Of a stretch of 38,020 bases of DNA, positions 85 to 30,013 are shown in pieces (the stretch's first letter is position 1; each line of letters begins with the position of its first letter). The stretch is from an uncultured Eubacteriales bacterium. Its GTDB lineage: Bacteria > Bacillota > Clostridia > Oscillospirales > Ruminococcaceae. The notes below the pieces were generated by a model. That model was not told the origin of the DNA. It did no database searches and saw nothing but the letters and a program-made list of their open reading frames with translations. Both the position numbers and the translations under genes were made by a program. Location: the NCBI GenBank assembly GCA_900314975.1, contig OMXI01000019.1, positions 1-38,020 on the forward strand, written 5' to 3'.

Positions 85-101
85 AAATTCTGATTTCTCT
101 G

Positions 102-9937: not shown

Positions 9938-11521
9938 TTATTCTTCCTCACTGTCATCGTCTGCTTCGCTCTGCTGCTCATCAGACTCCTGCACATCGGC
10001 TTTTTCGGCATTGCTGTTCTTGTTTGAGTTATTGCCGCCGTTATTGTTATTATTCCTGTTTTTATTCTTTTTCTTTTTGCCGCTGTTCTGAGGCTTTGGC
10101 TTTTCCTCTTCCTCCTCGTCGGCAAACTCCTGGTATTCCTCGCCGTACTTTTCAGCCATACGCTTTCTTGCGGCAGCTATCTTTCGGCGGTCCTCGGCAG
10201 CCTTTTCAGCCTTGGAGAGCTTCTTTTCCTCGGTGTCCTCGTTCTCGTCATCATCAGACTTATACGCTGCACCGCCCATTCTTTCGAGGTTCTGCTCTGC
10301 CATTTTTGCAAACATGGTCTTCTTGCCGCTCTTTTTGTTCTTTTCGTTTTCAGCCTCTATCATAGCCTGTATCTTTGCAGGGTTATAAACCACATTGAGA
10401 ACAACCGTCTGAAGCAATGCGAACAGTGAAGAGTAGCACCAGTACAGACCCAGACCTGCAGGGTAGCTGAAACCTATCCACAGCGAGAACACAGGCAGAA
10501 TGATAAATGTTATCTTCATGCCCATACCCATAGCCTTTGCGGCAGCAGGGTTGTTCTTTTTCTGGAAGAACTGCGAAACGATAGTGACCGCTATCTGAAG
10601 TATAAACGATGCAAACGGGATAATCCATGTCATGTCCTTGAATGACGGGATAACGCCCATATCAAGACCGAAGCTCTTGTAGTCGATATCCTCTGCCGCA
10701 CTCTTTACCGAGTCAGGCAGCACATCTGCATACTCTCCGCCTGCGTTATTGACAAACGAAAATGTCATAAGCTCAGGGCGTGAGGTCGCAAGGTTCTTTG
10801 AAATATACTCCTCGTTGAGCATAAACGAGTCTATATCAGGGTGCTTTTTGACAGCCTCAATTATCCTCTTGACCTGCTTTTCCTCGTCTTTAAGGCTCTT
10901 TGCTGCGTTCTTGCAGTTGTCCGAATCAAGAAAATACTTGGAAAACTCCTCGTATATCTCATCGTCCTTTTTGCCGTTCTTTTCAAATACATACAGGTAC
11001 TTCTGGAAAACAGTCTTGCCCTTGACCTCGTCCTTTTCACTGTCTGAAAGCGACAGCTTTTCTATCTCGTCGTTGATATACTCTACATTCTTATCGCTGT
11101 GCATATCGCTTGAGACCACATACAGTCCTGCGATAAGGTTGTTTGAGTTGTTCAGTTCGTCCTTGTCAGCGTTTGAAATGTACGTCAGCGGTCCGTAAAT
11201 GATAGGGATAAGTGCAAAAAGTATCAGCATCGTTACTATCATCGGCAAGCAGCTTGCCATAGGGTTTATGCCCGTTTTAGCGTAAAGAGCCATCTGCTCT
11301 TCCTGCATCTTCTGCTGATTTTTGCCGTACTTTTTCTTTATCTTCTCAAGCTCGGGCGCAATAAGTGCCATCTTTGCCGTGCTTTTCTGCTGCTTTACAG
11401 CCAGCGGAAAAACAATAAGCCTTGTTACAAACGTAAACAGTAAAAGCGCTATACCGTAGTTTTTAACAACATAGTACAGGCCCTTCATTATCCACCCTAA
11501 AGGGATAGCTATAATACCCAT
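9938..11521 (-). CDS. yidC: Membrane protein insertase YidC/OxaI (SpoIIIJ type)
   Basis: YidC inserts and folds inner-membrane proteins. The 527-aa protein has TM1 (about 12-45, containing 'TFVTRLIVFPLAVKQQ' with groove Arg34), the cytosolic coiled hairpin (KIKKKYGKNQQKMQEEQ), TM2 (about 90-113), and three further TMs around 290-385. It is roughly twice the length of Bacillus SpoIIIJ for two reasons: a charged extracytoplasmic insertion of about 170 aa (about 118-290) between TM2 and TM3, and a long Lys/Glu tail with an Asn-rich stretch ending in acidic residues. No N-terminal lipobox is visible. It lies between yidD and jag, separated from yidD by a 261-bp gap that holds a structured repeat. 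Confidence 0.94.
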   Translation of the reverse strand: MGIIAIPLGWIMKGLYYVVKNYGIALLLFTFVTRLIVFPLAVKQQKSTAKMALIAPELEKIKKKYGKNQQKMQEEQMALYAKTGINPMASCLPMIVTMLILFALIPIIYGPLTYISNADKDELNNSNNLIAGLYVVSSDMHSDKNVEYINDEIEKLSLSDSEKDEVKGKTVFQKYLYVFEKNGKKDDEIYEEFSKYFLDSDNCKNAAKSLKDEEKQVKRIIEAVKKHPDIDSFMLNEEYISKNLATSRPELMTFSFVNNAGGEYADVLPDSVKSAAEDIDYKSFGLDMGVIPSFKDMTWIIPFASFILQIAVTIVSQFFQKKNNPAAAKAMGMGMKITFIILPVFSLWIGFSYPAGLGLYWCYSSLFALLQTVVLNVVYNPAKIQAMIEAENEKNKKSGKKTMFAKMAEQNLERMGGAAYKSDDDENEDTEEKKLSKAEKAAEDRRKIAAARKRMAEKYGEEYQEFADEEEEEKPKPQNSGKKKKNKNRNNNNNGGNNSNKNSNAEKADVQESDEQQSEADDDSEEE

Positions 11522-11555
11522 TATTGTCCTCCGTTTTACTTTCCTTTAATTTGTG

Positions 11556-11730
11556 CAGAACAGCTGGGGGAAACCCTTTTGGAGAAGGGTTATCCCCCAG
11601 ACCCCCTTCCTAAACCTTTTAATGACTTTTCAGCAACGGGAGGCAAAGCTCCCGTCACTGAAAAGTGTTAGAGAATTCAGAAAAGAAAGTTTGAGAATAA
11701 CACTTCCAAGAGATTTTCTCAATTATTCTG
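11556..11730 (+). repeat. Structured interspersed repeat, copy A (MITE-like)
   Basis: This non-coding element between yidD and yidC is oriented opposite to those genes. It contains hairpin 1 (11564-11600, CTGGGGG...CCCCCAG enclosing ACCCTT/AAGGGT), a conserved linker ending in AAACCTTTTAATGA, hairpin 2 (11625-11666, ACTTTTCAG...CTGAAAAGT enclosing ACGGGAG/CTCCCGT), and a 3' part ending CTCAATTATTCTG. The end CAGAATAATTGAG (reverse complement) resembles the other end, CAGAACAGCTGGG. Copies B, C and D in this window share its layout. Confidence 0.8.
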
Positions 11731-11782
11731 TACACATAAAATGCAAATCAAATATACAAAAATACACTTATTCTTTATTTCA

Positions 11783-12040
11783 TTACTTAACAGCTTTTTT
11801 CTTTATTCTGAAATAATCCCTGCTCAATTTATCGGGGACATAGTCCACACCGCCGCTGCTCCACGGATTGCACCGCAAAAGTCTCCATACCGTCAGCAGC
11901 AGACCCTTGAAAAACCCGTGCTTTTTAAACGCCTGTGCCGAGTACGCCGAGCAGCTCGGGTAGTACTTGCACCGCGCGGGAAACAGCGGACTTATAAACT
12001 TTTGATATATCTTCACAAAGAATAAAGCTATATATTTCAT
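11783..12040 (-). CDS. yidD: Membrane protein insertion efficiency factor YidD
   Basis: This small peripheral membrane protein (85 aa) assists YidC-dependent insertion. The family hallmarks are clear: an amphipathic N-terminal helix, 'YQKFISPLFPARCKYYPSCSAY' with the conserved cysteines, SAQAFKKHGFFKGLLLTVWRL, then RCNPWSSGGVDYVP. It overlaps the end of rnpA by 4 nt, which indicates coupled translation in the classical rpmH-rnpA-yidD-yidC order. Confidence 0.94.
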   Translation of the reverse strand: MKYIALFFVKIYQKFISPLFPARCKYYPSCSAYSAQAFKKHGFFKGLLLTVWRLLRCNPWSSGGVDYVPDKLSRDYFRIKKKAVK

Positions 12041-12393
12041 TTCTTTTTATTGTGAACAAATGGCTTGTCCATTTCCTTTGCCAGCCGCTTCTGGATAAAA
12101 TCCTGCACGTCACAGCTTGATTTTTCCTGTATGCCGTTTCTGCCCACAAAGACTACATCGTAGCCTATCGGCAAGCCCTGTTCGCTTTGGCGGTAAGCAG
12201 CCCTTATTATCCGCTTGACTCTGTTTCGCGTCACAGCGTTGCCCAGCTTTTTGCCCGCGGTTATACCAAGCCTTGAAACAGGCATATTGTTCGGAAAAAA
12301 ATGTACGCACAGCCACTCACAGCCGACACGTCTTCCCTTTTTGTAGCAGCGCATAAAGCCGCCGTTGTCCTTCAGGACGGTTGTAAATAACAT
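12037..12393 (-). CDS. rnpA: Ribonuclease P protein component
   Basis: RnpA is the basic protein cofactor of RNase P, which removes the 5' leader of tRNA precursors. The 118-aa protein begins 'MLFTTVLKDNGGFMRCYKKGRR', matching the usual LKKN..F..VYK.GK start. It carries the RNR signature in GNAVTRNRVKRIIRAAYR (about 51-68). The ATG at 12393 directly abuts a heptanucleotide tandem array, and no good Shine-Dalgarno is visible apart from AAGAG-like words within that array. The stop overlaps the yidD start by 4 nt. Confidence 0.93.
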   Translation of the reverse strand: MLFTTVLKDNGGFMRCYKKGRRVGCEWLCVHFFPNNMPVSRLGITAGKKLGNAVTRNRVKRIIRAAYRQSEQGLPIGYDVVFVGRNGIQEKSSCDVQDFIQKRLAKEMDKPFVHNKKK

Positions 12394-12628
12394 ATCTCTT
12401 ACTTCTTGGTTCTTACCTCTTACCTCTTACTTCTTACCTCTAAAAAACTAAAAACGACCTTGTACCCTTCAATTTTTTTGAATGGTAAAGGTCGGTCATA
12501 AGGGGAAAGCGCCTTTAAATAAAGTTCACCGATAATTTACCCCCGAAGCTGCGGCATTGTTTCTTTTGCCGCGGCAGTCAATGTCCTCCGCCATTATCGG
12601 CGGACGACGCTGCACAGCTGCAAGATTA
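12394..12628 (-). promoter_or_regulatory. Structured rpmH-rnpA spacer with hairpins
   Basis: This 235-nt spacer holds three inverted repeats. (a) An 18-bp stem with two mismatches lies at 12455-12494 (CGACCTT...AAGGTCG, T-rich loop) and is followed on the minus strand by T runs, so it could act as a partial terminator before rnpA. (b) A 9-bp stem with one mismatch lies at 12548-12556/12567-12575 (GCTGCGGCA/TGCCGCGGC). (c) TCCGCC/GGCGGA lies at 12587-12604, close after the rpmH stop. Next to rnpA lies the heptad array (12396-12444). No convincing -35/-10 pair is seen, so rnpA is probably reached by transcription from the rpmH promoter. Confidence 0.55.
12396..12444. repeat. Heptanucleotide tandem array upstream of rnpA
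   Basis: Seven units of 7 nt run in perfect phase on the plus strand: CTCTTAC, TTCTTGG, TTCTTAC, CTCTTAC, CTCTTAC, TTCTTAC, CTCTAAA. On the transcribed strand the unit reads GTAAGAR. The array ends 2 nt before the rnpA start codon. Confidence 0.85.
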
Positions 12629-25248: not shown

Positions 25249-25276
25249 TTTTTAACGATGTTTTGTATTTTCTTTT

Positions 25277-25450
25277 CCGAATAATTGAGGAAATTCTTCT
25301 GAAAAGAATATTTCCCGAACTCTTTCGGGTCTCTCATAACTTTTTCGTTATCGGGGACTTGTTCCCGATGGCGAAAAAGCAATAAAAGGTTTCTGAAAAG
25401 GGGTTTGGGGAAAAACTCTTCTCCAAAAGAGTTTTTCCCCAATTACTCTG
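25277..25450 (-). repeat. Structured interspersed repeat, copy B (MITE-like)
   Basis: This is the best-preserved copy and lies between the Nif3-like gene and rqcH. Terminal ends CAGAGTAATTGGGGAAA and (reverse complement of the other end) CCGAATAATTGAGGAAA agree at 14 of 17 positions. Hairpin 1 is a perfect 16-bp stem (25405-25420 with 25427-25442). Hairpin 2 is CTTTTTCG...CGAAAAAG enclosing ATCGGG/CCCGAT (25340-25379). Short stems CCCGAA/TTCGGG and ATTCTT/AAGAAT lie near the far end. On the minus strand the order matches copies A and C. Confidence 0.85.
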
Positions 25451-25465
25451 AAAGGAGAACGCATA

Positions 25466-27223
25466 ATGGCACTTGACGGAATATATTTAAGCTTACTGAA
25501 AAAAGAATTTGAAACGCTTATCGGTGCGCGTGTTGACAAAATACACCAGCCCACCCGCGAAGAACTGCTGATAGGCTTTCGCACCCGCGAGGGCGGCAAA
25601 AAACTGCTTATCAACGCAGGTTCAGGCTCGGCGCGCATACACCTCACCACGCAGGAGATAGAAAACCCCAAAACGCCGCCTATGCTTTGTATGCTGCTGC
25701 GCAAGCACTTATCATCTGGCAGGCTTGTCGACATTCGCCAGGACGGCTTTGAGCGCATACTTTTTCTTGACTTTGAGTCCACCGACGAGCTTGGCGACAG
25801 AGCCGACCTCACGCTCGTTGTCGAGATAATGGGCAGATGCTCAAACGTCATACTTGTCGGCGGCGAGGGAAAGATAATCGACAGCATACACCGCGTAAAC
25901 CCCGACGGCAGCGCGCGCCCCGTGCTGCCCGCAATGAAATACGAAACACCCCCGCGCGAGCAAAGACTGAACATTTTCACCGCACCGCGCGAGGAGCTTG
26001 AACTAAGGCTGAAACAGTTCCCAAAGGCAGAGCTTTGCAAAACGCTTCTGAAAGTGTGCGAGGGAATATCACCAATCTTTGCGCGCGAGTGTGAAAACTA
26101 CGCCCTGCGCGGCGTAGATAAGCCTGTCGAGGATATGCAGCCCGATAATTTTGACCGCCTTGCAGAGTATATCGGCAGTATCGGCGGGCAGCTGCAAAGC
26201 GGCACAAACCCCTATACTCTCGTCAAGACCAAAGAGGGCGCGTTCAAGGATTTCTGCTTTTGCGATATACGCCAGTACGGCTCGCTTATGGATACCAAAA
26301 GCTTTGAGTCCCCCAGCGAACTGCTTGATTATTTCTATTCGCAAAGGGATATGTTCGCGCGCGCAAAGCAAAAAGCAGCAGACCTTTTCAAGCTTGTGGG
26401 CAATCTCACCGAGCGCACACGGCGGCGCGTAGAGAATCAGAAAGCAGAGCTGCACGACTGCGCAGACCGCGACAAATACCGCATTTACGGCGATCTGATA
26501 ATGGCAAATATAAGCGACATCATCAAGGGCATGAGCTGGTGCAGAGTGACCAATTATTACGACGACGACCTTTCGCTCACCGAGATACCCCTTGACAAAA
26601 GGCTCTCGCCGCAGGAAAATGCGCAGAAATACTACAGCCTCTACCGCAAGCTCGACACCGCCGAGCATAAGCTGAAAAAGCTGATAGTGCAGGGCGAGGA
26701 GGAGCTTGTCTACCTCGACAGTGTCTATGAGTCGCTCACCCGCGCACAGACCGAAAGCGAGCTTGCAGAGCTTCGCCAGGAGCTTGCCGACGAGGGCTAT
26801 ATAAGGTGGCAGGGCGCGAAAAGCAAGCCCCCGAAAGCACTTCCGCCGATGCGATTTAAAACGCCCGACGGCTTTGTTATCCGCGTGGGCAGAAACAACC
26901 GCCAGAACGACAGGCTCACCTGCAAGGAATCGGAGAAAACTGATATGTGGCTTCACACCAAGGACATCACGGGCAGCCACGTAATCATCACAGCAGACGG
27001 GCGCGAAATACCCGAAATGGTCATTTATACAGCCGCACGCCTTGCCGCGTATTTTTCAAAGGGCAGAGAGTCCTCGCAGGTCGCGGTGGACTATACCCTC
27101 GTGAAAAATGTCAAAAAGCCAAACGGCGCAAAACCGGGAATGGTGATATTCACGAATAATAAAACACTGTACGTTTCACCCTTCTCACCCGAAGAAGTAG
27201 ACAGTCTGAAAACACCGCTGTAA
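25466..27223 (+). CDS. rqcH: Ribosome quality-control factor RqcH (NFACT protein)
   Basis: RqcH binds stalled 50S-peptidyl-tRNA complexes and recruits tRNA-Ala to add C-terminal alanine tails. It was earlier called fibronectin-binding protein A. The 585-aa protein has NFACT-N (MALDGIYLSLLKKEFETLIG, 'GARVDKIHQPTREELL', VVEIMGRCSNVILV), a middle coiled coil (about 285-440), and the NFACT-R domain (about 455-575, GFVIRVGRNNRQNDRLT, ESEKTDMWLHTKDITGSHV). The position of the Asp-Arg pair in Bacillus RqcH reads Glu-Arg (GFERIL). The ATG has GGAG upstream, directly after repeat copy B. Confidence 0.94.
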   Translation: MALDGIYLSLLKKEFETLIGARVDKIHQPTREELLIGFRTREGGKKLLINAGSGSARIHLTTQEIENPKTPPMLCMLLRKHLSSGRLVDIRQDGFERILFLDFESTDELGDRADLTLVVEIMGRCSNVILVGGEGKIIDSIHRVNPDGSARPVLPAMKYETPPREQRLNIFTAPREELELRLKQFPKAELCKTLLKVCEGISPIFARECENYALRGVDKPVEDMQPDNFDRLAEYIGSIGGQLQSGTNPYTLVKTKEGAFKDFCFCDIRQYGSLMDTKSFESPSELLDYFYSQRDMFARAKQKAADLFKLVGNLTERTRRRVENQKAELHDCADRDKYRIYGDLIMANISDIIKGMSWCRVTNYYDDDLSLTEIPLDKRLSPQENAQKYYSLYRKLDTAEHKLKKLIVQGEEELVYLDSVYESLTRAQTESELAELRQELADEGYIRWQGAKSKPPKALPPMRFKTPDGFVIRVGRNNRQNDRLTCKESEKTDMWLHTKDITGSHVIITADGREIPEMVIYTAARLAAYFSKGRESSQVAVDYTLVKNVKKPNGAKPGMVIFTNNKTLYVSPFSPEEVDSLKTPL

Positions 27224-29750: not shown

Positions 29751-30013
29751 CGGGATAATTGGGGAAAACTCTTTTGGAAGAAGCCAAAAACAGCTGCGCT
29801 GTTTTTTGAGAGTAACCATGGTAACGGTTACTCTGTTTTCCCCCGAGAATATCCTTTGGATATTCTCGCAAGCGACCGTAAGGTCGCTTATCCCCCTTTC
29901 AGAAACCTTTTAATGATTTTCGGCGGTTGGGAGTTTTACTCCAGACCGCCGAAAATGACTAATAGTCCCAAGAGAGTTCAAGAAAGATTCTTTTCAGAAG
30001 AACTATCCTAACC
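29751..30013 (+). repeat. Structured interspersed repeat, copy C (expanded form)
   Basis: This is the longest copy (about 263 bp), after serA. It opens with GGGATAATTGGGGAAAACTC and the shared CTCTTTTGGA word. A series of hairpins follows: AAAAACAGC/GCTGTTTTT (29786-29806), AGAGTAACC/GGTTACTCT (29809-29834), GAGAATATCC/GGATATTCTC (29845-29867), and AAGCGACC/GGTCGCTT (29870-29889). The conserved CCCCCTTTCAGAAACCTTTT linker is next. A 12-bp-plus hairpin based on ATTTTCGGCGGT/ACCGCCGAAAAT and the tail ATTCTTTTCAGAAGAA complete it. The central insertion sits where copies A and B have a simple loop. Confidence 0.82.

Follow-up and report, generated by a model that had tools for sequence, protein, structure and literature searches.

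An abundant, mobile palindromic repeat family of Ruminococcus and the inverted host flanks of its copies

Bacterial MITEs such as Correia/NEMIS and ERIC are short, non-coding and dispersed elements with imperfect inverted ends. REPINs are extragenic, high-copy inverted doublets of REP sequences with a spacer hairpin that shows compensatory changes and a clover-like alternative fold (PMC3116915), and the REPs measure 20-40 bp and have a tag defined as GTAG or CGTC at the palindrome (PMC3733652). In pneumococcus, one study gives 125 BOX and 110 RUP elements in one genome, which spread in the past, with BOX being modular (PMC3049150). Template switching, according to two reports, creates or repairs hairpin stems by reverse-complement copying (PMC8794818, PMC8604942).

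Here, we describe a repeat of Ruminococcus whose plan is already known from MITEs, REPINs and BOX elements, and whose copy-specific inverted host flanks are unusual. Like MITEs, it is short, non-coding and dispersed in many copies (67 in the source genome), and it has terminal inverted repeats, either as a palindromic core or as the ends AAATCAGAATTT/AAATTCTGATTT of larger D-type units flanked mostly by T...A; unlike MITEs, its A-C type has no shown target duplication or known parent transposon, and its outer arms are copy-specific. It shares with REPINs inverted conserved ends, a spacer hairpin, compensatory changes, extragenic placement, high copy number and a clover-like fold, so that the combination of inverted doublet, spacer hairpin and compensatory change is present. 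However, its core is about 155 nt with long arms against the 20-40 bp given for REPs, its host genome has no Y1 transposase, and it shows copy-specific inverted host flanks and modular long forms. Compared by architecture only, it resembles BOX, RUP and SPRITE of Streptococcus pneumoniae as a folded small interspersed repeat with MITE features, but it belongs to another lineage and its extra modules are single palindromes instead of tandem boxB arrays. Reverse-complement copying, as in template-switch hairpins, is a possible source of its matched stems, whereas here the substrate would be a dispersed mobile repeat, and ends of host genes would be copied as well. Within the coverage of our literature search there was no such repeat in Ruminococcus, and the available parts of the papers made no mention of copy-specific inverted host flanks of such a repeat.

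The window analysed here is the entire contig C54, 38,020 bases, from a source genome (G000) of 2.92 Mb in 91 contigs. An earlier note on this DNA had claimed that four sites (A to D) hold one structured repeat family and share short conserved words in all four copies. The family stood, beyond chance, while the words were less widely shared than claimed: ACTCTTTTGGA was exact in B, C and D with one mismatch in A (4 matches against a chance mean of 0.67, 0 of 100 shuffles having as many), AATTGGGG was exact in B and C only (2 matches against 0.82, 18 of 100 shuffles), ATTCTTTTCAGAAGAA was likewise exact in B and C only, and CAGAAACCTTTTAATG was exact in C with 1 mismatch in B and 2 in A, was not found in the truncated D, and had its fourth match (3 mismatches, 35824) outside the copies. 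A covariance model (R1), built from 24 short copies, recovered A at 120 bits, B at 149 bits and the 3' part of C at 105 bits. Copy A lies in a 261-base gap from the yidD stop to the yidC start, copy B between a Nif3-like and an NFACT/RqcH-like gene, and copy C between a serA-like gene and yabP, the serA and NFACT names being matches that score under curated cut-offs. Copy D is truncated because the window is the whole contig, which ends inside it. The hairpins, both orientations and the intergenic placement described earlier were all borne out at the sites, whose features are as follows.

11562..11717, plus strand: copy A core, matched by model R1 at 120.3 bits, between yidD and yidC
11534..11560, plus strand: copy A left outer arm, the yidC upstream region read antisense, an imperfect inverted match to 11726-11752
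11726..11752, plus strand: copy A right outer arm, inverted match to the left outer arm 11534..11560
11564..11600, plus strand: copy A hairpin 1 (HP1), CTGGGGG...CCCCCAG, from the sequence and pair counts over the family
11609..11624, plus strand: copy A linker CCTAAACCTTTTAATG, from a word search
11625..11666, plus strand: copy A central hairpin 2 (HP2), from the sequence and family counts
25291..25443, minus strand: copy B core, model match in the gap between the Nif3-like and NFACT/RqcH-like genes
25340..25379, minus strand: copy B hairpin 2, from the sequence and family counts
25446..25466, minus strand: outer arm of copy B at the HP1 end, taking in the NFACT-like gene's start codon and the region upstream of it, an inverted match of 25261-25279
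25261..25279, minus strand: second outer arm of copy B, opposite the HP1 end, inverted match to 25446..25466
29751..30013, plus strand: long form of copy C, located after the serA-like gene
29866-30005, plus strand: copy C 3' part, matched by covariance model R1
29809..29834, plus strand: copy C extra palindrome module AGAGTAACC...GGTTACTCT, variants in loci L002, L004 and L017
29845..29867, plus strand: copy C extra palindrome module GAGAATATCC...GGATATTCTC, variants in L002 and L004
29872..29887, plus strand: copy C extra palindrome module GCGACCGTAAGGTCGC, variants in L002 and L004
37917..38020, plus strand: copy D, left end (AAATAAGAATTTG...) and core start of a larger MITE-like unit that is truncated where the contig stops

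The core, about 155 nt long, is an imperfect palindrome with conserved ends and linker and a highly variable but paired HP2. In the reading direction, the left end (A)ATTGGGG is followed by hairpin 1 GGGGAAAACTCTTTTGGAGAAGAGTTTTCCCC, the linker CAGAAACCTTTTAATG, hairpin 2, a purine-rich stretch and the right end, which is a degenerate inverted copy of hairpin 1. Since the core is palindromic, the model recognises most copies in both directions, with 189 matches in 97 sources. Over HP1, HP2 and the tail of 24 copies, 90.4% of 823 pair cells were paired, and 23 of 35 pairs showed two-sided change against 13.3 in shuffles, a signal that was destroyed by sliding the partners; the tail hairpin was weak in these copies, with 76.7% pairing and no two-sided change. 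The same pairing pattern appeared in 149 distinct rows fitted to the model, in an alignment that follows the structure and in which about 42 of 150 rows are reverse-strand readings. In long forms, hairpin 1 contains additional palindromes; L012 and L002 differ in these and share the remainder. Cores also occur as tail-to-tail pairs (plus, then minus) whose two starts are separated by about 210-260 nt, and some of the pairs share one larger unit of 440-540 nt; the pairs were located on contigs C1, C23, C25, C35 and C76 of the source genome and at loci L229, L240 and L249.

For the tests that follow, we used 99 copies from a survey of the genus. They come from 100 hits picked by hand, mostly with the best scores and thus neither complete nor random, which left out most near-identical units of relative G020 and several others that were already in the collection or near contig ends; 4 hits less than 400 bases from a contig start were dropped and 3 window copies were added. 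The Rickettsia palindromic element is an example of a repeat that lies in frame within genes. A coding element of this type was rejected here, for the 99 cores have no consistent frame, as the earlier reading without a convincing ORF had it: at most 17 of 99 are open throughout in any single frame of six, and their lengths span all three classes modulo 3.

A search for further copies, which the earlier note had proposed, found many beyond the four. With copy C as query, blastn gave 58 matches in the source genome, and the linker word with at most one mismatch gave 20 sites there against 0 for the reversed word. The word was present in 8 of 40 relatives, all of the same genus (9 of 41 counting G000), and absent from 16 genomes of other genera. 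The covariance model gave 113 hits on both strands, which are 67 non-overlapping places in the source genome, a count that may be a lower bound, as 150 of 852 first-look candidates were scored, and that includes some contig-end fragments; a first count of about 100 copies was revised to 67 because the palindrome is matched on both strands. Of 29 genomes from the genus, 21 had model matches, with 105 candidates scored in each and both strands counted; G044 had only 1 hit and G021 only 2, and G022 (5 contigs) carries a diverged, more symmetrical version. A two-part exact pattern run over a named genome collection matched 48 stretches, all titled Ruminococcus, uncultured Ruminococcus, uncultured Clostridia or uncultured Clostridiales, in agreement with the Ruminococcus host suggested before. 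A known Rfam RNA family was rejected, as the window and six element loci gave 0 matches above the gathering score, and copy A gave only chance-level ones. The repeat is real, abundant and mobile, and the searches run here found it only in Ruminococcus and close relatives. The repeat also stands at many contig ends of these assemblies. At the contig end opposite to copy D, window positions 85-96 hold a D-type end AAATTCTGATTT adjoining GGCGCAAAGCGCC, so that both ends of this contig lie at such repeats.

Some copies, D among them, sit inside a larger MITE-like unit with the ends TAAATCAGAATTT. Among the loci examined, we found 17 end-to-end units of 219-541 nt with distinct flanks, and G020 holds eight closely similar units of two subtypes (distinguished by eye) with differing flanks. 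The larger unit has therefore spread recently, and it is for this related form that the recent spread claimed by the earlier note was seen. The base before the D-type unit is T in 15 of 17 and the base after it is A in 14 of 17, with both in 13 of 17; these flanks fit a TA target but also a longer end. Of the target duplications that had been anticipated, none was seen for the A-C type, and a TA duplication for the D type is only suggested. No clean empty site was found for the D type. Paired exact ends in G008 and G020 stand about 300-540 nt apart, none of those listed enclosing a stretch of gene size. Another short repeat with a D-type end, AAATCAGAATTTGCCGCCGCGGCGGCGCGCTTGTCCGTCGCGCATTAG, was noted at L015, L028 (a variant), L043 and L049.

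We then compared the flanks outside the core. Family-wide conservation ends about 8-10 nt beyond the core (49 copies without D ends), and past that limit the flanks pair with each other, copy by copy. In a cross-pair test on the 97 copies with enough flank, 26 copies had their own flanks as the best partner of all, and in 56 the own flanks ranked within the best 5%. Of the window copies, C was its own best partner, A was equalled or beaten by 3 of 96 cross partners and B by 4 of 96, B having had 0 of 24 as good in a smaller test. The outer arms of copy A have 20 matches and 7 mismatches, and the match reaches past the sequence conserved in the family. Fifty of 96 copies had unique flanks, and among these, against cross pairs, 25 reached p<0.01 and 14 p<0.001 at 25 nt, 19 and 1 at 15 nt, and 19 and 16 at 40 nt, with an arm offset of 8 or 9 in 30 of 50 (ties assigned to 8); about half of the unique-flank copies had no significant outer arms. 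Inverted matches over 700-base flanks were noisy, the cross controls often being as high, and co-change of outer arms in 23 orthologous pairs gave no clear signal.

The arms can reach into genes. In 66 of 94 copies, a same-strand open frame stops no more than 60 nt from the core, and the last 48 coding nt scored in the top 5% of cross scores in 12 of these 66 (3.3 expected), 7 beating all 93 cross pairs. The gyrA end in G009 is an example of an inverted gene-end copy. Further matched ends belong to genes that we take to be DNA polymerase I in the source genome, a V-type ATPase subunit and an NFACT-like gene in G020, and a response regulator in G011; two of six example frames (L202 and L195) may be spurious. 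At copy C the outer arm was matched and the serA end was not.

On this evidence, we give a probability of roughly 0.6 to the reading that this is a mobile palindrome of a non-autonomous, MITE/REPIN-like type, in which fold-back template switching maintains the match between the arms. The repeat would spread as DNA with an enzyme supplied in trans; a single strand of the element would fold back, and DNA synthesis on the folded strand, that is, template switching, together with exchange between copies would keep the hairpin arms matched. Such fold-back synthesis could extend the palindrome into the host flanks, even into gene ends. Template switching would explain both the matched yet fast-changing hairpins and the inverted copies of host flanks. 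A more specific version is tentative and, in our judgement, somewhat doubtful: at or after insertion, fold-back synthesis may reproduce as much as about 80 nt of host flank, including gene ends, in inverted form on the opposite side of the element, and the matched stem may then be kept as a single-stranded molecule on one defined strand, where G-U/G-T is allowed and A-C is not. If this were true, the repeat family would manufacture host-derived stem-loops at gene ends. If the element does make inverted host arms, these genomes hold dozens of natural records of fold-back synthesis, and how template switching creates and maintains hairpins could be tested directly in a bacterium.

The mismatches within the stems bear on which strand is kept paired. 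Among 1816 HP2 cells in 107 distinct forward rows, 1684 were Watson-Crick, 108 A-C, 14 G-U and 10 other. An A-C pair as read is G-U on the complementary strand, so 98.7% of the HP2 cells would pair there; in HP2 of copy A, two A-C mismatches on the plus strand are G-T/G-U on the opposite strand. We accordingly dropped HP2 as a pure DNA-level palindrome with G-U nearly absent, since its departures are mostly A-C. Counted by 75 arm haplotypes, the bias was 64 A-C against 11 G-U, and counting only distinct position/type events it was 15 against 6 (p=0.08), weaker once shared ancestry is counted; single-linkage clustering of the haplotypes was a coarse control, merging nearly all 75 into 3 clusters. 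The outer arms lean the same way, with 64 against 33 (p=0.002) in 15 unique-flank copies scoring at least 24 and 163 against 120 in a wider, less independent set of 44 copies scoring at least 26 (some flanks shared), both sets favouring well-matched arms. Hairpin 1 had the opposite lean by cells (44 G-U against 24 A-C) and none by haplotype (12 against 11), and the tail had 81 G-U against 53 A-C. One strand thus seems to be favoured in HP2 and the arms, as RNA or single-stranded DNA. Simple template switching does not predict strand-asymmetric mismatches, which point to selection on a single-stranded molecule, and the bias may reflect such selection. Paired counts of G-U against A-C mismatches offer a simple test for which strand of a palindromic repeat matters.

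The same counts raise the possibility that the element acts as a structured RNA (cis-regulatory, an RNase III target or a small RNA) on the strand opposite to the reading direction and is spread by DNA mobility. The 98.7% pairing of HP2 on that strand with G-U allowed and the lean of the unique-flank outer arms favour this reading, as do two promoter-like consensus matches at copy A, where the favoured strand is the sense strand; these are 2 of 5 weak sites (1.5 expected in shuffles), consensus matches only, and lie at the copy's right end. However, among 43 copies between same-direction genes (from 92 copies, with gene classes set by crude open-frame rules), 34 read with the genes and 9 against, so that in most cases the favoured strand runs antisense to its neighbours. 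The mismatch counts in hairpin 1 and the tail, the event-level p value in HP2 and the lack of an Rfam match above the gathering score also argue against it. There was no terminator-like site in 11450-12450 either, and an intrinsic terminator was rejected for the same stretch. We regard the structured RNA as unlikely.

Alternatively, the element might prefer the loop of an existing hairpin, so that the arms would be the target and not the product of insertion. G006, which lacks the copy A core, retains TGTGCAG...CTGCACA at that gap, as this reading would have it, but this sequence may equally be a deletion scar. At the gyrB end, G004 and G008 have the core and an inverted match (0 of 500 single-base shuffles and p=0.006), whereas G000 and G006 have neither core nor a significant match (p=0.44 and 0.46), and the gyrA gap of G000, without the element, shows no arm by eye. 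These comparisons make insertion into existing palindromes rather improbable. Part of the gyrB flank that forms the arm in G004 and G008 is alignable to G000 and G006, and the arms of G004 and G008 score no lower against the gyrB end of G000 (30 and 28) than against their own ends (28 and 24); arms could therefore also decay or build up by substitution. The gyrB 3' gap holds a different multi-hairpin repeat of about 250 nt, GTCAAACCCTGAAGGGTTTGAGGAAAA..., in G010 (L274), G009 (L278) and G013 (L280), and yet another long hairpin-rich insert in G020 (L275).

The shared plan of two inverted conserved palindromic ends and a hairpin spacer with compensatory changes, as given in the REPIN report (PMC3116915), would also fit a true REP/REPIN moved by RAYT, a Y1 tyrosine transposase. 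A PF01797 profile search of the carriers found no mobilising enzyme for the family: the profile is absent from G000 (98.5% complete) and G006 (91%), both with dozens of repeat hits, and from the less complete carriers G011 and G001, and it is present in the carriers G008, G009, G010, G013, G020, G004, G022 and G002. No GTAG or CGTC tag was noticed in a boundary profile of 49 copies, the only place consulted for a tag beside hairpin 1. A REPIN with RAYT was rejected on the missing Y1 gene of G000 and G006, and we consider it very improbable. G008 and G022 have several fragmentary or repeated Y1 matches, and 4 of the 8 in G008 lie at contig starts.

For the mobile palindrome that we prefer, orthologous sites are also informative, and we read 11 of the genomes with matches at site A, 11 at site B and 10 at site C. 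In the yidD-yidC gap, the element is present in G020 and G010, as a remnant in G009 and as short arms only in G006, and the gap is without it in G004, G013, G008, G016, G003 and G044. The copy B gap lacks the element in G006, G013, G004, G003, G016 and G044; G020, G010 and G008 have different copies in this gap, either in another orientation or of the larger type, and a remnant lies in G009. Copy C was seen in G000 alone, the place after the serA-like gene being without it in G006, G020, G009, G010, G008, G013, G044 and G003, of which only G006, G009 and G010 (3 of 8) share the following gene with G000; in G004 the gap was not visible at this locus. Presence thus differs between relatives at A, B and C, as the earlier note's empty-site comparison was meant to reveal. 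Orthologous flanks across species were found for 23 pairs among the 99 copies, and many copies are hence old residents. These pairs and the sharing of copy A with G020 and G010 are what vertical inheritance of gene-specific elements at fixed places would give, but such an account is barely credible and is refuted in general by copy C, which G000 alone shows, by copy B, which three near relatives lack, and by the closely similar units at different sites of G020.

Copy A itself had been taken for a recent insertion that interrupts a conserved operon. Its presence at the same gap in G020 and G010, with the remnant in G009, speaks against a private insertion, and no gene is broken, as the copy begins after the yidD stop and finishes ahead of the yidC start; placed upstream of the yidC ribosome-binding site as well, it would be transcribed through, and it looks like a tolerated resident or passenger of the gap. 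Its core is 94 and 92% identical to two copies of the source genome with unrelated left flanks and 82% identical to the same-site copy in G020, and being nearer to copies of its own genome than to its counterpart points to exchange between copies or re-insertion.
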